Shown: positions 747-17,188 of the stretch, one piece after another
Position numbering within the stretch: position 1 is the first letter of the stretch
Layout of the letters: the number at the start of each line of letters is the position of its first letter
Assembly (NCBI RefSeq): GCF_007993035.1
Contig: NZ_VOOS01000004.1
Coordinates: forward strand, 124,001 to 188,000
Direction of reading: 5' to 3'
DNA length: 64,000 bases
DNA from: Vicingus serpentipes
GTDB taxonomy: Bacteria > Bacteroidota > Bacteroidia > Flavobacteriales_E > Vicingaceae
Notes under the pieces: model-generated
Told to the model about the DNA's origin: nothing
The model's input: only the letters and a program-made list of their open reading frames with translations
The model's database searches: none
Translations under genes and position numbers: made by a program

Positions 747-1348
747 TAGTTAGCCCCTCCCACAGCTTTAGGTTCAGCCTCAGAAATTCTTTGAGGATAA
801 ATTGCTTTAATTGCTTTGTATTGTTGTCCTATTAGCTCTGAAGATTCAGATTGAGCAACTAGTTCGTCATAAGATTTACCAAACTTCTGATTAGCTAATT
901 CATTTCTCAATTCACTATATGCACCAATTAATTCATTTTGAACTTTAATGTACATCTCATAAGAAGTCCCATTATCATTCTGTAATGAAATAATTTGTTT
1001 AGAAACTTCCATTTGTCCAAAAACAGGAACTTCTTCTATTTTAAACTCAGGCATTTCAGGATTGTTTTTATCTCCTTTGATAAATTCCTTTGCTTTTGCT
1101 CTCAATTCAGATACTTGAATGTAATCTCCTTCTACTAATAGTTGGTCATTTGCATTTACCAAAACCTCAAAAATATTACGTTGCTTAACATCAATATCTT
1201 CTGGATTATCCTCTGGTGGAGGTGGTAATTTTCTAATTAAACCTGTATCTGTATCCATCGTAGTAGTTACCAAGAAGAAAATCAAAAGCAAGAAAGCGAT
1301 ATCCGCCATCGAACCGGCATTTATTTCAGATATTTCTCTTTTAGCCAT
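746..1348 (-). CDS. exbD: ExbD/TolR family biopolymer transport protein (first copy)
   Basis: ExbD-type subunit of the same proton-channel complex. The protein has 200 aa, with the membrane helix at about residues 12-31 and the conserved aspartate at D16 (SMADIAFLLLIFFLVTTT). The periplasmic region is longer than usual and includes a Pro-rich segment just after the helix and a charged C-terminal half. It begins 9 bases after the small membrane-protein gene and overlaps the next exbD by one base, so the two are probably translationally coupled. The two ExbD proteins are clearly diverged outside the membrane helix, so they may form a heteromeric stator (inference). Confidence 0.9.
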   Translation of the reverse strand: MAKREISEINAGSMADIAFLLLIFFLVTTTMDTDTGLIRKLPPPPEDNPEDIDVKQRNIFEVLVNANDQLLVEGDYIQVSELRAKAKEFIKGDKNNPEMPEFKIEEVPVFGQMEVSKQIISLQNDNGTSYEMYIKVQNELIGAYSELRNELANQKFGKSYDELVAQSESSELIGQQYKAIKAIYPQRISEAEPKAVGGAN

Positions 1349-1357
1349 ATCAGGTTT

Positions 1358-1768
1358 TTATTTTAACATTTTTGAAACTTCAGCAAATATTACAGCACCA
1401 ATTGCTCCGGCACCCATAATGTAAAAAGCGATTAAACCAGTTTCTGATTGTTTAGAAGTTGAACCATCAGCTAATAATACACCATCAAGTGTGAAATATT
1501 CTTCACTACCTGCAAGTGCATAACTAATACCTACAACAACTAATAAACCAACCACTCCAATTAATGCATTTTTTGCTCCTTTCGGATTTTGTGCCATTGT
1601 TAATACTGGAAATACTACAGCTGTAAGTGCAGCGATTGCCAATAAAACATAGCACCAAGTAATTAACAAACCTTCTGAAACCACACCAGCAAAAAACAAT
1701 ACGCTTAATACTGCTGATAGTCCTAATAAGGCTATTAATATTGTACTAAATAACTTATTGTTACCCAT
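1358..1768 (-). CDS. Small polytopic membrane protein of the exbB/exbD operon
   Basis: A 136-aa protein with about four hydrophobic helices (near residues 8-30, 33-57, 66-88 and 110-133) and no charged catalytic motif. It lies between exbB (8 bases upstream) and the first exbD (9 bases downstream) on the same strand. A small hydrophobic protein in this position is a recurring feature of Bacteroidota ExbB/ExbD clusters, so it is probably an accessory part of the complex. No characterised family is recognised and no function is assigned. Confidence 0.8.
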   Translation of the reverse strand: MGNNKLFSTILIALLGLSAVLSVLFFAGVVSEGLLITWCYVLLAIAALTAVVFPVLTMAQNPKGAKNALIGVVGLLVVVGISYALAGSEEYFTLDGVLLADGSTSKQSETGLIAFYIMGAGAIGAVIFAEVSKMLK

Positions 1769-1776
1769 GTTGTTTT

Positions 1777-2628
1777 TTATTTATTTGATAATTCGTTTTT
1801 AACTAATAAATCAATTAAAGAAATAGAAGCATTTTCCATGTCATTAACTAAGCTATCTACTTTTGCAACGATATAATTATAAAAGATTTGAAGAATAATT
1901 GCAACAATCAAACCAAATACAGTTGTTAACAAGGCTACTTTAATACCATCTGCAACTACTGCTGGAGAAATATCTCCCGCTGCTGCAATCGCATCAAAAG
2001 CTCCAATCATACCAATTACTGTCCCCATAAATCCAAGCATAGGAGCCAAAGCAATGAATAACGAAATCCAAGAAATTCCTTTCTCTAATAATCCCATTTG
2101 AACACCACCATAAGAAACTACTGATTTTTCAACCATGTCAATTCCTTCATGACTTCTGTCTAAACCTTGGTAAAAGATACTAGCAACAGGACCTTTTGTA
2201 TTTCTACAAACTTCTTTAGCAGCATCAACACCACCCGAAGCTAAAGCTGATTCAATACCAGATAATAACTTGTTAGTGTTAGTTGTTGACATGTTTAAGT
2301 ATATAATTCTTTCAATAACAATTGCTAAACCTAAAATCAAACAAACTAATACAATCCCCATAAATCCAGGACCACCTTCAATAAATTTTTGTTTGATAAT
2401 TTGAGTAAAAGATTCGTCTGCAGCAGGAGCAACTTCTTCTTCCATTGCTGCTGGCTCTTCAATTGGAGCAGCATCTTCAACTACTTCTTCTGCTGGAGCT
2501 TCTTCCATTACTTCTTCGCCTTCAGCAACTACTTCTTCTGTAGCAGTTTCATCTTGTGCATAAACTGTGTTTAACATTCCGAAGCTTAAAAAGCCTGTAA
2601 TTGTTAATAGTGCAAATAACTTTTTCAT
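1777..2628 (-). CDS. exbB: MotA/TolQ/ExbB proton channel family protein
   Basis: Proton-channel subunit of the ExbB/ExbD energiser, inner membrane. The start is placed at the ATG at 2628 (283 aa), because the protein then begins with a cleavable-looking signal sequence (MKKLFALLTITGFL..YAQ). A longer open frame reaching 2769 adds residues that look like translated leader. After the signal comes a stretch of about 45 residues rich in Glu, Ala and Pro, then a first helix near 75-95 and the conserved pair of helices near 185-280 typical of MotA/TolQ/ExbB. The acidic periplasmic extension is seen in Bacteroidota ExbB proteins but not in the E. coli type. It is the first gene of the operon. The 180 bases upstream (2629-2808) hold no other gene and presumably its promoter, although I see no exact -7 box there. 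Confidence 0.9.
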   Translation of the reverse strand: MKKLFALLTITGFLSFGMLNTVYAQDETATEEVVAEGEEVMEEAPAEEVVEDAAPIEEPAAMEEEVAPAADESFTQIIKQKFIEGGPGFMGIVLVCLILGLAIVIERIIYLNMSTTNTNKLLSGIESALASGGVDAAKEVCRNTKGPVASIFYQGLDRSHEGIDMVEKSVVSYGGVQMGLLEKGISWISLFIALAPMLGFMGTVIGMIGAFDAIAAAGDISPAVVADGIKVALLTTVFGLIVAIILQIFYNYIVAKVDSLVNDMENASISLIDLLVKNELSNK

Positions 2629-2808
2629 AGAGTTTAATTGTTTGTTATCTATCTTATTTAATTTAATAATAAATGATTTTGGATGCCAAGTTACAAAAAA
2701 AATTATTCCATTGTTAATTTTTTTTATTATCGTTATGTTAACGGTTCTTTTTCTCGATAAAAGGGACAAAAAACAACTAACATTAAACGCTTGTATCTAT
2801 TTCATATT

Positions 2809-4062
2809 CTATAGGTTAAATGTTTTTTTAACTTTAGCTACATAGTCTAATTCTTCCCATGGAAATAATTTAACTTTTATTTTTTTCACTTTTCCAGAAC
2901 CATCTGTAAATTGTTTTTCAACTGTTTCACAAGTTCTTCCCATGTGACCATATGCAGCAGTTTCTGAGTAAATAGGAGTTCTTAATTTAAATCTAGTTTC
3001 AATTGCATAAGGACGCATATCAAAAAGCTTTTCTACTTTTTTAGCAATTTGTCCATCAGTTAATTTTACTTTAGAAGTACCATAGGTGTCGATAAAAATA
3101 CCCATCGGTTGAGCAACTCCAATTGCATAAGCAACTTGAACTAAAACCTCATCACACAAACCTGCTGCAACTAAATTTTTAGCGATATGACGTGTAGCAT
3201 AAGCAGCAGAACGGTCAACTTTACTTGGATCTTTTCCAGAAAATGCACCACCACCGTGAGCACCTTTTCCTCCATAAGTATCAACAATAATTTTTCTTCC
3301 TGTTAAACCTGTATCACCGTGAGGCCCACCAATTACAAATATTCCTGTTGGGTTGACATGATATTTAATTTTATCATTAAATAGTGCCTGAATATTTTTT
3401 GGCAATTGTTTTTTTACTCTTGGAATTAATATGTTGATTACATCTTCTTTAATCTTTTTCAGCATTTTAGCTTCCGTATCAAAATCATCGTGTTGAGTAG
3501 AAACAACAATAGCATCAATTCTAATTGGCGTATTATCATCATCGTATTCTATTGTTACTTGAGATTTTGCATCTGGACGTAAATAGTTAATTTCTTTTCC
3601 TTCTCTTCTCAATACTGCTAACTCTTTTAGTAACATGTGAGAAATTTGAAGTGCCAAAGGCATATAATTTTCTGTTTCGTTAGTTGCATAACCAAACATC
3701 ATTCCCTGGTCTCCAGCTCCTTGATCTTCTTTCTTTTTACGCTCTACACCCTGGTTTATATCTGGTGATTGCTCGTGAATTGCAGAAAACACACCACAAG
3801 AGTTACCATCAAACATATACTCACTTTTAGTATAGCCAATCTTATTAATTACTTCTCTTGCTATTTTTTGAACATCTAAGTAAGTTTTTGATTTAACCTC
3901 TCCGGCTAAAACAACTTGACCTGTTGTTACTAAAGTTTCGCAAGCTACTTTCGATTCTGGATCAAAAGCTAAAAAGTTATCGATTAATGCATCTGAAATT
4001 TGATCAGCTACTTTATCTGGGTGCCCTTCTGACACTGATTCTGAGGTAAATAAATACGACAT
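2809..4062 (-). CDS. metK: S-adenosylmethionine synthetase
   Basis: Makes S-adenosylmethionine from methionine and ATP in the cytoplasm. The 417-aa protein shows the family signatures: GHPDK at 13-17, [12 protein letters not shown] at 115-126, and the [19 protein letters not shown] loop at about 270-290. The length matches the Bacteroidota form, which is longer than the E. coli enzyme. The start ATG at 4062 gives the canonical N-terminus [15 protein letters not shown]. It stands alone on the minus strand and has a 60-base leader downstream of a SAM-II-type riboswitch, which would let its product repress it. Confidence 0.97.
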
Positions 4063-4123
4063 TTTATATTGTTTTTTTAGTTGTTAAAACGAAATGTCGG
4101 CCGAGAGCAATTAGAAAAATACA

Positions 4124-4170
4124 ATTTTAGCTTTTTTTTCTGTGGTCGCAAGCAGCCAAATCATTCCACA
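4124..4170 (-). promoter_or_regulatory. SAM-II (SAM_alpha) type riboswitch in the metK leader
   Basis: Read on the minus strand, TGTGG (4170-4166) pairs with CCACA (4145-4141) to form P1 around a 20-base loop containing TGATTTGGC and GCTTGC. A tail of A residues then leads to AGCTAAA (4132-4126), which can pair over 7 bp (one G-U) with TTTGGCT in the loop (4160-4154). This is the H-type pseudoknot of the SAM-II class, including its conserved GCUAAAA tail. The element ends about 60 bases before the metK start, the expected place for feedback control by S-adenosylmethionine. SAM-II is best known from Alphaproteobacteria. No terminator hairpin follows, so control of translation seems more likely than attenuation. 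Confidence 0.82.
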
Positions 4171-4183
4171 TTTAATTCGACAA

Positions 4184-4191
4184 CAAAATAA
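4184..4191 (-). promoter_or_regulatory. Possible -7 box for metK
   Basis: TTATTTTG on the minus strand (4191-4184) matches seven of eight positions of TAnnTTTG. Transcription starting 6-8 bases later, near 4177, would begin immediately 5' of the riboswitch aptamer, which is where it would need to be. No clear -33 TTG is present. Confidence 0.45.
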
Positions 4192-4230
4192 AGGAATTTT
4201 TATTTTACTTATCGTTAATTCTATAATTTT

Positions 4231-5133
4231 TTATTTTGTTAATGATTTGAAAACATTCTCTAACGATTGGGTTTCTTTTTGCATTGTTAAAACAGTTAAA
4301 TCATGTTTCATTGCAAATTGAAAAATGTTGTTTCTTACATTATCTGCTTTTATTTCCATCACCAAAACAGTCTCAGATTTTTGAGCAATTTTTGTTACTC
4401 CTTCAATTTTTTCTAATTGTTTATTATCTATCGGTTTATCAAATTCTACAGTAACAACAATACCTTGTTTGTTTCGTTGTTGTAATTCTTTTGTGGTTTC
4501 GTTGGCTACAATTACACCTTTATTTACAATAATTGTTTTATCACAAATTGCTTCAACCTCTTGCATAATATGAGTCGAAAGCATAATTGTTTTTTCTTTC
4601 CCTATCTCTTTTATTAGATTTCTTATCTCTTCTAGTTGATTTGGATCTAAGCCTGTAGTAGGTTCATCTAATATCAACACTTTTGGATTGTGTATCATTG
4701 CTTGGGCTAATCCCACTCTTTGTCTATACCCTTTAGATAAAGCTCCTATTTTTTTGTTTTGCTCCAAGCCTAATCCAACCATATCAACCATTTCTTTTAC
4801 ACGAGCTCTTCTGTTGTCAATTTTATAAACTCCTCCAACAAAATCTAGATATTCTTTAACATACATGTCTAAATAAAGAGGATTATGTTCTGGTAAATAC
4901 CCTACATTTCGTTTTACATCAATTGGATCTTCTGTTACATCATAACCACAAACTTTAATTATTCCACTAGTTTGCGGAATAAAACAAGTTATGATTTTCA
5001 TCATTGTGGATTTCCCTGCTCCATTTGGACCTAAAAAACCAACAATTTCACCACCTCCAATTTCAAATGAAACATCGTTTAAGGCTTTTTGCTCGCCATA
5101 AATTTTTGTAACATTTTTTACTTCTATTGACAT
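4231..5133 (-). CDS. gldA: ABC transporter ATP-binding protein GldA
   Basis: ATPase of the GldA/GldF/GldG ABC transporter linked to gliding motility in Flavobacteriia. With the start at 5133 (MSIEVKNVTKIYG) it has 300 aa; a longer frame to 5169 adds 12 residues that do not resemble the family. Walker A is GPNGAGKST (35-43), the signature is LSKGYRQRVGLAQ (about 134-146), and Walker B is VLILDEPTTGLD (about 155-166). The stretch GYLPEHNPLYLDMYVKEYL is typical of GldA. The permease genes gldF and gldG are not in the window, so the assignment rests on similarity to the GldA subfamily. It is divergent from rsgA. Confidence 0.85.
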   Translation of the reverse strand: MSIEVKNVTKIYGEQKALNDVSFEIGGGEIVGFLGPNGAGKSTMMKIITCFIPQTSGIIKVCGYDVTEDPIDVKRNVGYLPEHNPLYLDMYVKEYLDFVGGVYKIDNRRARVKEMVDMVGLGLEQNKKIGALSKGYRQRVGLAQAMIHNPKVLILDEPTTGLDPNQLEEIRNLIKEIGKEKTIMLSTHIMQEVEAICDKTIIVNKGVIVANETTKELQQRNKQGIVVTVEFDKPIDNKQLEKIEGVTKIAQKSETVLVMEIKADNVRNNIFQFAMKHDLTVLTMQKETQSLENVFKSLTK

Positions 5134-5194
5134 ATTAAATGCTTTATTATTGTAATACGAAAGTACCAATTTTAGCTTAAAGCATTTAATTCTT

Positions 5195-5202
5195 TAACTT
5201 TG
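5195..5202 (+). promoter_or_regulatory. -7 box for rsgA
   Basis: TAACTTTG matches TAnnTTTG exactly. Transcription would start near 5208, giving a leader of about a dozen bases before the TTG start of rsgA. No convincing -33 TTG is seen. Confidence 0.6.
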
Positions 5203-5220
5203 ATTTTTTAAAATTATACA

Positions 5221-6153
5221 TTGCAAGGAATCGTTATAAAATCTACCGGAAGTTGGTACTCAGTTCGTTTAGAAAATGAAAAGCAAGTTGACGCCCGAAT
5301 TCAAGGTAAATTTAGGATAAAAGGAATTAAAACAACCAACCCTGTTGCTGTTGGAGACATTGTAACATTAAAAGAAACGGAAGAGAATTATGTAATTACC
5401 GATATTCAAGACAGGAAAAATTACGTCATCAGAAAATCGGTTAACCTTTCTAAACGTTCGCACATTATTGCTGCCAACATCGACCAAGCTTTGTTAATTG
5501 TTACGCTAAGCCACCCTACAACTTATACTGGTTTTATCGACCGTTTTTTAATTACCGCAGAGGCTTACCATATCCCTACTATTATTGTTTTTAATAAAAT
5601 AGACATCTATACCGAAGCAGAAAAAGAAAAACTTACTAAGTTGATGGCTATATATACCAAAATTGGCTATAAATGTGTTGCTATTTCTGCATTAAAAGAA
5701 GCTAATATTGAAGAACTAAAAACAATAATGAAAGATAAAACTTCTGTAGTTTCAGGACATTCGGGAGTAGGGAAATCGACTTTATTAAACTGTATTGAAC
5801 CTAAACTGAAATTAAAAACTTCTGAAATTTCAGAGTCTCACTCACAAGGAAAACACACCACCACTTTTGCAGAAATGTACGAGCTTAATTTTGGTGGATT
5901 CATTATTGATACCCCTGGTGTTAAAGCGTTTGGTTTGATTGATTTTGATAAAAATGAACTCTCTCATTACTTTTTAGAGATGAGAGCGTTATTAAACGAA
6001 TGTCATTTTAATAATTGCCAGCACATTAACGAACCAAAATGTGCTATTAAAGCTGCTGTTTCTACTGGAGAAATTGAAGAGTTCAGATACAACAACTATA
6101 TTAGTATGTATACTGATGATGAGGAAGAAAATTATCGAGATAAAGGGTATTAA
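5221..6153 (+). CDS. rsgA: Ribosome small subunit-dependent GTPase A
   Basis: GTPase that helps 30S subunit maturation. The 310-aa protein has the OB-fold N-terminus, then the circularly permuted GTPase motifs in the order G4 (NKID, 125-128), G1 (GHSGVGKST, 179-187) and G3 (DTPG, 230-233). The C-terminal zinc site is C261, C266, H268, C274. The start is a TTG, chosen because the frame then begins MQGIVIKSTGSWYSV as in other RsgA proteins and a -7 box lies just upstream. It is followed after 2 bases by dtd and then by a gamma-carbonic anhydrase on the same strand. Confidence 0.95.
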   Translation: MQGIVIKSTGSWYSVRLENEKQVDARIQGKFRIKGIKTTNPVAVGDIVTLKETEENYVITDIQDRKNYVIRKSVNLSKRSHIIAANIDQALLIVTLSHPTTYTGFIDRFLITAEAYHIPTIIVFNKIDIYTEAEKEKLTKLMAIYTKIGYKCVAISALKEANIEELKTIMKDKTSVVSGHSGVGKSTLLNCIEPKLKLKTSEISESHSQGKHTTTFAEMYELNFGGFIIDTPGVKAFGLIDFDKNELSHYFLEMRALLNECHFNNCQHINEPKCAIKAAVSTGEIEEFRYNNYISMYTDDEEENYRDKGY

Positions 6154-6155
6154 TT

Positions 6156-6608
6156 ATGAAAGTTGTCATCCAAAGAGTATCTGAAGCTTCTGTCACAGTT
6201 AATAAAATTGTTACAGGAAAAATTAATGCTGGCTTATTGGTATTGATAGGGTTTGAAGAAACAGACACACAAGAAGATATTGCTTGGATGAGTGGAAAAA
6301 TAACTCGTTTACGCATATTTGGCGATGATAATGAAAATATGAATTTATCTGTTAGTGATGTTGGTGGCGAAATTTTATTAATTAGTCAGTTTACTTTGCA
6401 CGCTAGCACAAAAAAAGGAAACAGACCCTCTTTTATTAAGGCCGCAAAACCCGATTTAGCAATACCTTTATACGAACAGTTTATACAACAGCTGGAAATA
6501 GATTTAGGCAAACCTATACAAACTGGCGAATTTGGTGCCGACATGAAAGTGGCATTAATTAACGATGGCCCCGTAACCATAACAATAGACAGTAAAAACA
6601 AAGAATAA
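6156..6608 (+). CDS. dtd: D-aminoacyl-tRNA deacylase
   Basis: Removes D-amino acids (and glycine from mischarged tRNA-Ala) from tRNA, a proofreading role in the cytoplasm. The 150-aa protein matches the family length and has the two active-site motifs SQFT (77-80) and GPVT (138-141), the latter holding the cross-subunit Gly-cisPro. It lies 2 bases after rsgA and 1 base before the carbonic anhydrase homologue, so the three form one transcription unit. Confidence 0.96.
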   Translation: MKVVIQRVSEASVTVNKIVTGKINAGLLVLIGFEETDTQEDIAWMSGKITRLRIFGDDNENMNLSVSDVGGEILLISQFTLHASTKKGNRPSFIKAAKPDLAIPLYEQFIQQLEIDLGKPIQTGEFGADMKVALINDGPVTITIDSKNKE

Positions 6609-7122: not shown

Positions 7123-7654
7123 TTTAATTTTTCATTTACATGAAGACTTTTTCTATAGCTTCCTTTATTCTTATTACTTTTTATGCAAATAGTTTTTTTG
7201 CACAAGGATGCAGCGATGCTGGTTTTTGTAGTATAGACGGAATAAAACAAAACAATGTAGAACAAAATTTGATAAATACTGCTACAATAGAACCTTTTAG
7301 CAACAATATTAAAACAGGAATATCTATTGGCAATACTAGGTATAACGTATGGATATTTAATTCATACCTTGCTTATTCTAGACAAATTAATAAGCAGTTG
7401 AGTTTTTCAATAAAAATGGATGGGCAATATCGTTTCGGTGAGCTTAATCAAGTATTTGGCTTTTCAGACCTAAGTCTTTCAATGTCTCAAAAATTATCAA
7501 AATCATTCGGAATTATCGCAGGGGGAAAAATACCGTTTAATGATGCGAATAATAAATATAAAGGTAACTCAATGCCAATGGCCTATCAGACAAGTTTAGG
7601 GTCTTATGATGCTATTCTTGGAGTACAATATGTTCAAGAAAAAATTTTTGTTGT

Positions 7655-7669
7655 CCTAGTCGGGCAACA
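7655..7669 (+). repeat. Left direct repeat of the insert
   Basis: CCTAGTCGGGCAACA matches the copy at 9731-9745 in 12 of 15 positions; the three mismatches are grouped in the middle. It lies inside a dyad in which GTTGTCC (7650-7656) can pair with GGGCAAC (7662-7668). Such paired half-sites around a short variable centre resemble the core site of a site-specific recombinase. Confidence 0.7.
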
Positions 7670-7682
7670 TTAAGAAAACGAA

Positions 7683-7726
7683 AACCCCGCAAAAACAGTA
7701 GTGTTCTTTTGTGGGGTTTCTTTTTG
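7683..7726 (+). terminator. Strong terminator at the left edge of the insert
   Basis: A 13-bp stem (7683-7695 with 7708-7720, one G-U pair) with CCCC/GGGG at its base closes a 12-base loop and is followed by CTTTTT. It lies just after the premature stop of the split gene and would block read-through from rsgA-dtd into the insert's own gene. Confidence 0.85.
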
Positions 7727-7740
7727 GTACAGGATTCGTT

Positions 7741-7753
7741 ACAGGGTTTTAAT
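7741..7753 (+). repeat. Left subterminal direct repeat
   Basis: TACAGGGTTTTAA is repeated exactly at 9618-9630. Two related TACAG words flank it (TACAGGATTCG at 7729 and TTACAGAACCC at 7764). Clustered short direct repeats set inside the ends are reminiscent of arm-type recombinase binding sites, but this is only a resemblance. Confidence 0.55.
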
Positions 7754-7845
7754 TAAAGTCATTACAGAACCCTACTTTCTAATGTCTTTATTTCTTTAAA
7801 ATAGAATTCTCATTATTTTAATATCTTGCGATAATTAAATACGAT

Positions 7846-9567
7846 ATGAAATATATTTTTCTTACAACTTTAATTTTTTCATTTTATAGTCTATTCGCTC
7901 AAAGCGATTCTATTAATGATGTAAACTCAGAATTAAATTTTTATACAAAAGATTTATCTGATAAACTTATTATGCCTTATTTAACTTTAGTAGATATGGA
8001 TGGTGGTGATTTTTTTGATCATGGTGTTGGAAATAGAATACAAATGGAGCTGGCAAATTATAATGGCATTTTAGTTAACGAAAAATCATTAATAATTGAA
8101 GAAAATAAAGAAGATGACAATTACAAGTCGATGAAGTTTTACACAGGTGGGCCAAATAAGCAAAAGTATTTGAGTAAGTATGTTATTAACAATTTAAATG
8201 CTAAAAGCACACTTGCAGAATTACTAGGAAGAAATGAGGATGGAGGGTTTGATATTGATAAGTTAAATGCATTTTCGGATAAGATTATACATAAAAAAGG
8301 CATAAATAAAAACGAAGATTTTGCATATGATAGAACAGTAGATGAAGTTGGTGTTGCGCTAATGTTAAACACTTATTTTTTGGTAAAAATAGACGGTAAA
8401 TTATTTATTTTTAGAATAAACATTGAAAGAAAGAACCTTACATCATACGCTCAAGAGTATTGGTTTGAAAATTCAGAAAATAAAAATAATTTAAACGCTA
8501 AATACGACAGTTTAAAAATTCCTGTAGAATATATTGATATGGTACCATTAAATTTTATATCAAATAATAATGTGCAAAAAAATGGACCAAGATATGCTCA
8601 AAAAGTAGTTAATACTTTAATCAATAATAATATTTGGTTTAAAGATTTATCGAAAGAAGAAGGTGAAAAAATAATTTCAATAAATGATGATAAAACAGAA
8701 ATATCACTTGATGAATTATTAAAAGGAGCATACAGGACCCTGACTCAAAGAAAAACACCATCCCGAACTTCTTATTACTATTTAACCGATATAGTTGAAA
8801 ATAAACAGGGAAAATTAGAAAATAAGATTGTAGGGAAATTATTAGTTAGACCTCAAACTAAAGAGGCAAGGCAAATAGGTGGAAGGAAAATTCATAAAGA
8901 AATGAAAATTATACAAACATCTAATTATTTTAATCTTTCAATTGGATATAACCCTTTTATAGATGTAACATCTAATGGTATCAATTATGAAATTGGAATA
9001 CCAATAAGAAGATCACGTAAGGGATTTACAAACCTAGAATTTATTTTTGCTTATACAAAAAGTTTTACAAAGCGAATTGATGCTGGCAATTTAGTATTTG
9101 ATTATAATTACTATCCTGAAATAAATACGGGTTCAAAGTATAGAGCTGGAACTGGGGTTCGAAAAAATATTAATGGAGTAAGATCTTACAAATTTTGGAG
9201 TTTTACTTTGTTTGGGATTTCTGCAAAAGCTTATTTATCTAATCGTGGAAATTTTTTCATCAAATATAATATTAGCTTTGGTATGTTTGGTAACAATGTA
9301 ACTACTAACATGTTTAAAACCGAAACTGGTTCTGGTACTGTAGGTGGGTTTTTTAAGAACTCAATTGGGCTTCATCATTATTTAAACCATCGAGTAAACT
9401 TTTTCATACGTCCAACTTTAACTTCTAGGTCACATATAAATCAATATATAAATGTTTCAGAAAGCGAAATTTCAAGAAAAGCGGGAGGATGGAATGACGA
9501 ATTTAGAAACATAGGTAATAGCAAATTAACAGGATCTATTTTATTCGGTTTTAATTTTGATATTTAA
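7846..9567 (+). CDS. Envelope protein of unknown function carried by the insert
   Basis: A 573-aa protein starting with a signal peptide (MKYIFLTTLIFSFYSLFAQ), so it is exported. Residues about 20-350 are a charged soluble region with no motif I recognise; residues about 360-573 alternate hydrophobic and polar residues with many aromatic ones and end in FGFNFDI, as in outer-membrane beta-barrels. The gene has its own start and no partner gene in the insert. There is no exact -7 box upstream. It could be a surface or receptor-like protein, but no function is assigned. Confidence 0.75.
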   Translation: MKYIFLTTLIFSFYSLFAQSDSINDVNSELNFYTKDLSDKLIMPYLTLVDMDGGDFFDHGVGNRIQMELANYNGILVNEKSLIIEENKEDDNYKSMKFYTGGPNKQKYLSKYVINNLNAKSTLAELLGRNEDGGFDIDKLNAFSDKIIHKKGINKNEDFAYDRTVDEVGVALMLNTYFLVKIDGKLFIFRINIERKNLTSYAQEYWFENSENKNNLNAKYDSLKIPVEYIDMVPLNFISNNNVQKNGPRYAQKVVNTLINNNIWFKDLSKEEGEKIISINDDKTEISLDELLKGAYRTLTQRKTPSRTSYYYLTDIVENKQGKLENKIVGKLLVRPQTKEARQIGGRKIHKEMKIIQTSNYFNLSIGYNPFIDVTSNGINYEIGIPIRRSRKGFTNLEFIFAYTKSFTKRIDAGNLVFDYNYYPEINTGSKYRAGTGVRKNINGVRSYKFWSFTLFGISAKAYLSNRGNFFIKYNISFGMFGNNVTTNMFKTETGSGTVGGFFKNSIGLHHYLNHRVNFFIRPTLTSRSHINQYINVSESEISRKAGGWNDEFRNIGNSKLTGSILFGFNFDI

Positions 9568-9617
9568 ATATACATTAAATTCTCTTTCATTTCTTTAATC
9601 CAAATTCACGATTACCG

Positions 9618-9630
9618 TACAGGGTTTTAA
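9618..9630 (+). repeat. Right subterminal direct repeat
   Basis: Second copy of TACAGGGTTTTAA, in the same orientation as the copy at 7741-7753. It lies between the end of the insert's gene and the right edge, in a roughly 165-base stretch that holds no gene. Confidence 0.55.
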
Positions 9631-9730
9631 CTGTTTTCTATCGGTATTTGCGTTTTTACTTCAACCTAATAAAAGTAGAAAGTCGTGTTTAAATGCGGCC
9701 AAGTGGTATTAGCGGTTAGATTGGTAAGCC

Positions 9731-9745
9731 CCTAGGGTGGCAACA
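9731..9745 (+). repeat. Right direct repeat of the insert
   Basis: CCTAGGGTGGCAACA pairs with the left copy at 7655-7669. Translated across a rejoined junction it reads VVLGWQQPF (or VVLVGQQPF if the left copy is used), in frame with both halves of the host gene, so one copy is probably the original target. Confidence 0.7.
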
Positions 9746-10200
9746 ACCCTTTATTCAGAACTCAAATACATTTATGATTGGGAATTTTTCAAAAGAAGAA
9801 TTAGGAGCTAAATATCCCATTACAAATAAATTTAAACGTGCGGGAGATCTATTGTTGAGAATTTCTTATCACCACATCCCTAAAGTCAGAATGAAAAATT
9901 TTTCGTTTACCTATAGCTTGCTTCCTATTTATCACTTAAAAAATGATGAGTATACAAATGCAGAAAAAAAAATAGTTGAGATTAAAGATAGCAAAGGCCT
10001 TACTTTAAATACCAATGTTTTTGTGAATTATCGGATTAATAATAAATCAGCAATAGAAATATCTACTGGATTTCCTTTAATTGCTAGGAAGTTGCGCCCT
10101 GAAGGATTAAGCCAATTTGCCATAACTATAGAGTTCATTAAAAGGTTTTAAAAGCCGTTAGATTAAAATCTAAAATATTTAATCTGATAAAGTAAAATAT

Positions 10201-15343: not shown

Positions 15344-17188
15344 ATGTGTGGAATAGTTGCATACATTGGAGATAAGCAAGCTTATCCTATTTTAATAAAA
15401 GGACTTCAACGTCTTGAATACAGAGGTTATGACAGTTCTGGTGTAGCATTGTTAAGCAACAATGAAATACATCTTTATAAAAAGCAAGGTAAAGTTGTTG
15501 AGTTAGAGAATTTTGCTAACGGAAAGGATGTTAGTGGTAGTGTCGGCATTGGTCATACTAGGTGGGCAACACATGGTGCTCCCAATGATAAAAATGCTCA
15601 TCCTCATTATTCTGGATCAAATAAATTAGCAATTATCCATAACGGAATTATTGAAAACTACGCCTCTTTAAAAGCAGAAATGATTTCTAGAGGGCATGTC
15701 TTTGAAAGTGATACAGATACAGAAGTTTTAATTCACTTAATAGAAGATATTCAGGAAAAAACTAATGTTGATTTGGAAGAAGCTGTAAGAATTGCTTTAA
15801 ACGAAGTGATCGGTGCTTATGCAATCGTAATCATGTCTAAAGAAAATCCTGATTTATTAATTGCAGCTAAAAAAAGTAGCCCGTTAGTTATTGGATTAGG
15901 AGAAAAAGATGAATTTTTTATCGCTTCAGACGCTACACCAATTGTTGAATACACAAGAAATGTAGTTTACCTTAATGATGAAGAGATTGCTATTATGCAA
16001 AGAGGAGAAGATCTTCGTTTATTAAACATAAAAAATCAACAAAAAACACCATATATTCAAGAATTAGAAATGCAACTCGAGGCCATTGAAAAAGGTGGTT
16101 ACGATCATTTCATGATAAAAGAAATCTATGAACAACCTCAATCTATACGTAATAGTATGAGAGGAAGAATAGATTTAAATAAAGGAATTATTTCTCTTGG
16201 TGGAATTAGAGAATACGAACAAAAAATAATTAATGCTCAGCGAATTATTATTGTTGCTTGCGGTACTTCGTGGCATGCTGGCTTAGTTGGCGAATATTTA
16301 TTTGAAGACCTAGCAAGAATTCCTGTTGAAGTTGAATATGCGTCTGAATTTAGATATCGAAATCCCATTATAAATGAAAACGATGTAGTAATAGCAATTT
16401 CTCAGTCAGGAGAAACTGCTGATACTTTAGCGGCAATTAAATTAGCAAAAGAAAAAGGCGCTACAATAATTGGTATTTGTAATGTTGTAGGTTCAACCAT
16501 CTCTAGAGAAACTCATGCAGGGTCTTACACTCATGCTGGTCCAGAAATTGGAGTAGCTTCTACAAAAGCATTTACTGCTCAAGTAACCGTTTTGTCTTTA
16601 ATGGCATTATCAATTGCCCATAAAAAAGGAACATTATCAGAATCTAGATTTAGAGAATTGTTAGTGGAATTAGATAACATCCCAAACAAAGTAGCTCACA
16701 TGCTTGAGTCTGATAAAACAATAAAATATATTTCTGATATTTATAAAGACGCTCGCAACTTCTTATACTTGGGTAGAGGCTATAACTTCCCTGTAGCCTT
16801 AGAAGGAGCTCTTAAATTAAAAGAAATCTCTTACATTCATGCTGAAGGTTACCCTGCAGCAGAAATGAAACACGGACCAATAGCTTTAATCGATGAAGAA
16901 ATGCCTGTTGTAGTTATTGCTACGAAACACGGTAACTATGAAAAAGTAGTTAGCAATATTGAAGAGGTAAAAGCTAGAAATGGAAAAATAATTGCAATAG
17001 TTACTGAAGGAGATACCGCTGTTAAAGCCATTGCAGACCATGTTATTGAGGTTCCTGAAACAGAAGATGCATTAAGTCCTTTATTAACTTCTATTCCTTT
17101 GCAATTACTTTCTTATCATATTGCAGTAATGAGAGGTTGTAATGTTGATCAACCAAGAAATTTAGCAAAATCAGTAACTGTAGAGTAA
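15344..17188 (+). CDS. glmS: Glutamine-fructose-6-phosphate aminotransferase (isomerising)
   Basis: Makes glucosamine 6-phosphate, the first step to UDP-GlcNAc for peptidoglycan and lipopolysaccharide. The 614-aa protein has the N-terminal glutaminase domain with the catalytic cysteine right after Met (MCGIVAYIG) and two SIS sugar-isomerase domains (CGTSWHAG near 305, SQSGETADT near 352). It ends with the canonical C-terminus RNLAKSVTVE. The last gene of its unit, it ends directly against the convergent TM2-domain gene with no gap, so no separate terminator is present. Confidence 0.98.
   Translation: MCGIVAYIGDKQAYPILIKGLQRLEYRGYDSSGVALLSNNEIHLYKKQGKVVELENFANGKDVSGSVGIGHTRWATHGAPNDKNAHPHYSGSNKLAIIHNGIIENYASLKAEMISRGHVFESDTDTEVLIHLIEDIQEKTNVDLEEAVRIALNEVIGAYAIVIMSKENPDLLIAAKKSSPLVIGLGEKDEFFIASDATPIVEYTRNVVYLNDEEIAIMQRGEDLRLLNIKNQQKTPYIQELEMQLEAIEKGGYDHFMIKEIYEQPQSIRNSMRGRIDLNKGIISLGGIREYEQKIINAQRIIIVACGTSWHAGLVGEYLFEDLARIPVEVEYASEFRYRNPIINENDVVIAISQSGETADTLAAIKLAKEKGATIIGICNVVGSTISRETHAGSYTHAGPEIGVASTKAFTAQVTVLSLMALSIAHKKGTLSESRFRELLVELDNIPNKVAHMLESDKTIKYISDIYKDARNFLYLGRGYNFPVALEGALKLKEISYIHAEGYPAAEMKHGPIALIDEEMPVVVIATKHGNYEKVVSNIEEVKARNGKIIAIVTEGDTAVKAIADHVIEVPETEDALSPLLTSIPLQLLSYHIAVMRGCNVDQPRNLAKSVTVE

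Follow-up and report, generated by a model that had tools for sequence, protein, structure and literature searches.

A small integrative element without a detected recombinase, probably at home at tRNA-Gln 3′ ends, interrupts a protein gene in Vicingus serpentipes

Introduction

Integrase-less islets at tRNA genes are often taken for decayed remnants. They are also dropped by Islander-type searches, which require an integrase gene (PMC4383910). The closest described systems are the cis-mobilizable elements (CIMEs), which accrete in tandem at tRNA 3′ ends, keep their attachment sites without integration or transfer genes, and are usually thought to arise by loss from a larger integrase-bearing element (PMC5704250). 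The ssrA islands of Dehalococcoides likewise form tandem islands bordered by 3′-end repeats, 15 of them without an integrase, alongside 16 sister islands that carry a serine recombinase module (PMC3146451). In the Methylophilaceae, fGI-2 is an additive flexible island of 330 bp-42 kb with tRNA-Lys end repeats (PMC10872708). Where the primary site is missing or changed, integration at imperfectly matching secondary sites is known for ICEBs1 (PMC3715440) and for SGI1 (PMC2297512); in the case of ICEBs1 mismatched crossover bases leave differing left and right copies, and excision from secondary sites is impaired (PMC3715440).

The 64,000-nucleotide stretch of V. serpentipes DNA analysed here (the window) contains a one-gene insert that resembles each of these systems in part. 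As in CIMEs, attL and attR are both kept, no integration or transfer genes were found, and members of its family stack in tandem at tRNA 3′ ends, here in relatives. Unlike CIMEs, the family has dedicated conserved ends across many cargoes and two tRNA specificities. As to an origin from an ICE or IME by loss of genes, no integrase-bearing sister with these ends was found. The window copy lies inside a single gene with no neighbouring element with which it could move in cis; given that it stands alone in a non-tRNA gene, it was not placed by stacking beside a helper, in contrast to CIMEs. The Dehalococcoides islands share the tandem arrangement, the 3′-end borders and the integrase-less members, but they target ssrA instead of tRNA-Gln and tRNA-Met, and no sister with a recombinase was found here. 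The fGI-2 island is alike in having variable units bounded by tRNA 3′-end copies with mostly unknown cargo, and differs in phylum and tRNA and in that it is not known to have conserved left or right end modules. Finally, the imperfect match and the differing crossover bases recall ICEBs1, and the former also SGI1; both of these, unlike the window element, encode their own integrase.

Results

Two imperfect 15-bp repeats, CCTAGTCGGGCAACA at 7655-7669 and CCTAGGGTGGCAACA at 9731-9745, are the borders of an insert (7656-9731; 2.08 kb, one gene) that splits one gene. The initial annotation had described these repeats, with three differences confined to their centre, and they lie where it placed them. 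Exact matches to the shared pattern CCTAGNNNGGCAACA occur at these two places only in the whole 2.92-Mb genome (a draft of 34 contigs), with about 0.07 expected by chance. The features, all read on the forward strand, are as follows.

7140..7655, +, interrupted host gene, 5′ part; encodes a QGCSDAG-type protein whose N-terminus is signal-like
7655..7669, +, left attachment core as in the element, CCTAGTCGGGCAACA; equals the T-stem 3′ strand plus the acceptor 3′ strand of tRNA-Gln(TTG)
7682..7720, +, terminator-like hairpin AAACCCCGC...GTGGGGTTT with a T run; belongs to the conserved left end
7726..7752, +, left arm-like repeat GGTACAGGATTCGTTACAGGGTTTTAA; common to the right end
7846..9567, +, cargo ORF of 573 aa with a secretion-signal-like N-terminus
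9602..9730, +, right-end module TTCACGATTACCGTACAGGGTTTTAACTG...GGTAAGCC; conserved, about 145 bp including the core
9731..9745, +, right attachment core as in the host, CCTAGGGTGGCAACA; continues the reading frame of the host gene and matches the element core at 12 of 15 positions
9732..10151, +, interrupted host gene, 3′ part; frame LGWQQPFIQNSNTF... aligns with an intact homologue

The two 15-mers share the reading frame of a single gene. The ORF at 7140-7673 enters the insert and then stops, and joining 7140-7655 to 9732-10151 within CCTAG gives an uninterrupted 311-aa frame. This fused frame is 41% identical to an intact homologue from a related genome (G007:C4:72850-73731), with no gap at the junction (KIFVVLGWQQPF against RWLFSTAWQQPL). 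Given the clean restoration of the gene and the gap-free alignment, the insertion was clean, the exchange falling within CCTAG or immediately to its left. With the right copy taken as host sequence and TCGGGCAACA of the left copy taken as element sequence, the central TCG is the element version, from the tRNA-Gln 3′ end, and GGT is the host version. The predicted empty site at the interrupted gene is GTTGTCCTAGGGTGGCAACAACC; rebuilt, it contains TTGTTGTC-CTAGGGT-GGCAACAA, a good dyad of the size found in tyrosine-recombinase cores. The dyad GTTGTCC/GGGCAAC that had been noted at the left copy is present, but proves to be a chimera in which host GTTGTC is joined to element GGGCAAC.

Neither terminal inverted repeats nor a recombinase gene were found in the insert, in agreement with the initial annotation, and searches of it against Rfam and for tRNAs returned nothing. 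The hairpin at 7682-7720 has a predicted RNA fold of -18.8 kcal/mol (z -3.1); it has equivalents in L035, L159 and L166 and is conserved in 11 left ends. The arm sequence TACAGGGTTTTAA occurs exactly at 7740 and 9618, and the arm is conserved in both left and right ends of relatives. The cargo ORF had no match in Pfam, NCBIfam or PADLOC, and no relatives in IMG/VR or plasmids.

The 15-mer CCTAGTCGGGCAACA, or a one-base variant of it, is the 3′ end of tRNA-Gln in six of the compared genomes (G025, G026, G027, G028, G017 and G029), CCTAG being the 3′ strand of the T-stem and TCGGGCA that of the acceptor stem of tRNA-Gln(TTG). A tRNA-Met(CAT) ends correspondingly in a sister core, CCTGGTGGGCCCACA. 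The window copy itself is not at a tRNA gene, and the window genome's own tRNA-Gln ends in CCTAGTAGGACAACA, with two positions different from the element core, and has nothing of the element family behind it. Because this tRNA-Gln both differs from the core and is empty, we infer that the element arrived horizontally, from a relative with an exactly matching tRNA-Gln, and recombined into a 12/15 look-alike.

No other CCTAGnnnGGCAACA pairs, for which a search of the genome had been suggested, were found, since the window copy is the sole Gln-type copy there; a one-mismatch site at 15557 lies within a glmS-like coding region and looks like chance. The element family is recognisable instead by its shared ends, and in related genomes. 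Its members are anchored at tRNA-Gln or tRNA-Met 3′ ends, carry varied cargo and form tandem arrays. The left end consists of the tRNA end, the terminator hairpin and the arm TTCGTTACAGG, and the right end, of about 145 bp, is common to the family. We aligned 11 left ends and 14 right ends; several left ends lie directly behind intact tRNA-Gln or tRNA-Met genes (in L163, L166, L167 and L203 the left end immediately follows an intact tRNA gene). The compared genomes are drafts whose contigs often stop within these regions.

About 18 copies of the right module occur in other genomes of the same taxonomic family, all of one other genus, and two further copies in the window genome (C4:13525-13669 and C1:475331-475475). 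Among 395 genomes spread over the class, a sample that does not include the module-bearing relatives, only the window genome has the module; it was found neither in phage or plasmid collections nor, as an exact 21-bp pattern, in IMG/VR. In the window genome a family left end follows the tRNA-Met gene at C6:3058-3133, and its CCAGG variant of the core recurs at the right end at C4:13525-13669. The two probably bound one island broken across two contigs. The copy on C1 (G000:C1:475,331-475,475; L037 6331-6475) is a solo right module with the core CCGGGTGGGGC, between LytTR-type regulator and UspA-like genes; no left end was found for it.

Two complete elements were found besides the window insert. 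The first, L035, is 7.8 kb long with the tRNA-Met core TCCTGGTGGGCCCACA at both ends (41 and 7863), and thus has the restored tRNA end and displaced fragment by which islands are recognised in the Islander sense; the second, L060, is 5.3 kb long (872-6201). L035, L060 and the arrays carry, among other cargo, regulators, an IS240 element and secreted proteins that have type IX sorting tails. In L063 a right end, core and left end are joined directly, as in a tandem junction or a circle, and L061 and L159 contain stacked tRNA-Gln-type cores. L035 carries a homologue of the window cargo gene at the same place, first after the left end, and has no integrase. The two cargo genes are 99.2% identical in DNA, whereas the ends of the two elements are only 79% and 84% identical; given that the same cargo lies between Gln-type ends in one and Met-type ends in the other, ends and cargo have been exchanged.

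Two mini-elements, of 97 and 117 bp (L159 11619-11730 and L061 7075-7206), each lie between two tRNA-Gln cores and contain nothing but a terminator and a right end of a second type, GGGCGAGAAGTTTATACTGAGC..., which also occurs at L171 1647. An AAA ATPase gene matching the PADLOC candidate defence family PDC-S27 (1.7e-171) stands alone between two tRNA-Gln cores at L061 7486-8985. In 6 of the 18 copies of the right module (L036 5485, L037 6310, L058, L059, L064 and L065), an IS6/IS240-type terminal repeat, GGTTCTGTCGCATTAAT with at most 4 mismatches, is found in the 60 bp interior to the right end, against a background of 11 in 20,000 random 60-mers. Such repeats may drive the exchange of cargo.

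These comparisons bear on whether the insert is the passenger of a DDE transposon or IS, with CCTAG as a 5-bp target duplication and the remaining 15-bp similarity due to chance. CCTAG is indeed identical at both ends, in L035 an IS6/IS240 element adjoins this cargo gene, and IS6-like ends are found immediately interior to several right modules. But GGCAACA is also exact, in a pattern expected 0.07 times per genome and found only here; tRNA 3′ ends bound L035, L060, L163, L166 and L203; the IS6 ends are internal to the element and not at its edges; and the insert has neither terminal inverted repeats nor a transposase. We consider this origin highly improbable. Homologous elements are bounded by 14-16-bp copies of tRNA 3′ ends, and neither a 5-bp CCTAG duplication with random flanks nor terminal inverted repeats was seen among them, which bears out the earlier proposal of a recombinase-type site over a short transposase duplication.

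We found no site-specific recombinase in the three complete elements (the window insert, L035 and L060) and no PF00589-type gene beside the right modules; serine recombinases were covered through Pfam scans of the listed proteins. The integrase inside the island that the Islander definition calls for was found in none of the three. It could be that the insert is the decayed remnant of a larger element that had its own integrase at insertion and later lost it by internal deletion. This would match the usual origin of cis-mobilizable elements (PMC5704250), and the conservation of the cargo ORF far above that of the ends (99.2% against 79-84%) points to internal exchange in the family. On the other hand, no integrase was found in any of the three complete elements or beside any right end, and in L035, likewise without one, this gene occupies the same position behind the left end. 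We regard such a loss as unlikely.

The initial annotation had also suggested looking for a tyrosine recombinase beside a matching site, and one was found, in a single relative. At L159 1517-11633 (G028:C14) a larger element extends from tRNA-Gln to a second core and encodes a 426-aa tyrosine recombinase and an excisionase-like HTH protein. No other tyrosine recombinase was found next to a tRNA-Gln core, and this enzyme is the nearest candidate helper, but its element has unrelated ends. As the helper of the family it was set aside: the core is shared but not the arms, and a close relative is missing from most module-bearing genomes. XerC/XerD-like host enzymes are present and are also candidates.

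The window genome further contains, at L129 8190-10320 (G000:C1, about 541,190-543,320), a gene for a 382-aa tyrosine recombinase followed by TTGTTAGGCGC, a 284-aa CPBP-like gene and GCGCCTAACAA; the recombinase scores above the cut-off of the NCBIfam model "tyrosine recombinase/integron integrase", and the locus is possibly a small integron-like one. In relatives, contigs often break off about 100 bp behind the gene related to this recombinase. As a helper, the clade of 390-aa integron-like integrases was rejected: its members are not beside the modules, and the module-bearing genomes G028 and G026 have no strong match.

Since the insert holds one gene, has a conserved end and lacks an integrase, and an integron-like integrase (C1:541,190-542,338) lies next to a possible cassette in the same genome, the insert might be an integron gene cassette moved by that enzyme to a secondary site. 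Sites of the attC type, however, work as folded strands, and folding of the aligned right modules predicted no conserved pairs. The core is a tRNA end, unlike the GCGCCTAACAA and TTGTTAGGCGC repeats beside the integrase, and in G028, which has modules, that integrase clade is without a strong member. We find a cassette origin very unlikely.

Discussion

In all likelihood, the insert at 7656-9731 is an integrase-less element whose home is the 3′ end of tRNA-Gln and which was integrated at a look-alike site by a borrowed site-specific recombinase. Support comes from the repeats, the restoration of the gene, the family of elements ending at tRNA-Gln and tRNA-Met, the shared modules, the tandem junctions in relatives and the three elements without a recombinase; that none of the recombinases found is tied to these ends counts against it. 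In the mechanism that we propose, the element would have formed a circle whose attachment site ran from the right-end module through CCTAGTCGGGCAACA to the terminator and left arm. A recombinase from another element or from the host, most likely of the tyrosine type, would have bound the core and possibly also the TTCGTTACAGGG arms, and the circle would have been joined to the 12/15 look-alike in the protein gene, the strands being exchanged within CCTAG or immediately to its left. Exchange at that position leaves TCG, from the element, at the left junction and GGT, from the host, at the right. Since 3 of 7 bases mismatch in a plausible overlap region, the reaction should be rare.

The earlier suggestion that the enzyme is supplied in trans is largely supported, being favoured by the comparative evidence. 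As to a tyrosine-recombinase core, the anatomy of the site fits, and the enzyme is presumably of that type.

In part this locus fits what is known, namely cis-mobilizable integrase-less islets at tRNA genes and secondary-site integration as in ICEBs1. What is new is that elements of two tRNA specificities have their ends in common, that one copy moved alone into a protein gene, without a helper in tandem beside it, and that no recombinase-bearing sister was found in the family. Tentatively, and with more doubt than confidence, the elements could be a dedicated family of recombinase-free tRNA-end cassettes, with common ends acted on by an outside enzyme, exchange of cargo between Gln and Met types, arrays at tRNA genes and lone jumps to another genus. 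If so, the family would be a double-stranded, tRNA-anchored analogue of integron cassettes.

The clean move into an unrelated gene indicates that integrase-less islets are apparently still mobile with a borrowed enzyme. The junctions of the window copy record which bases came from which partner, and through the conserved ends the helper enzyme can be searched for and the reaction tested.
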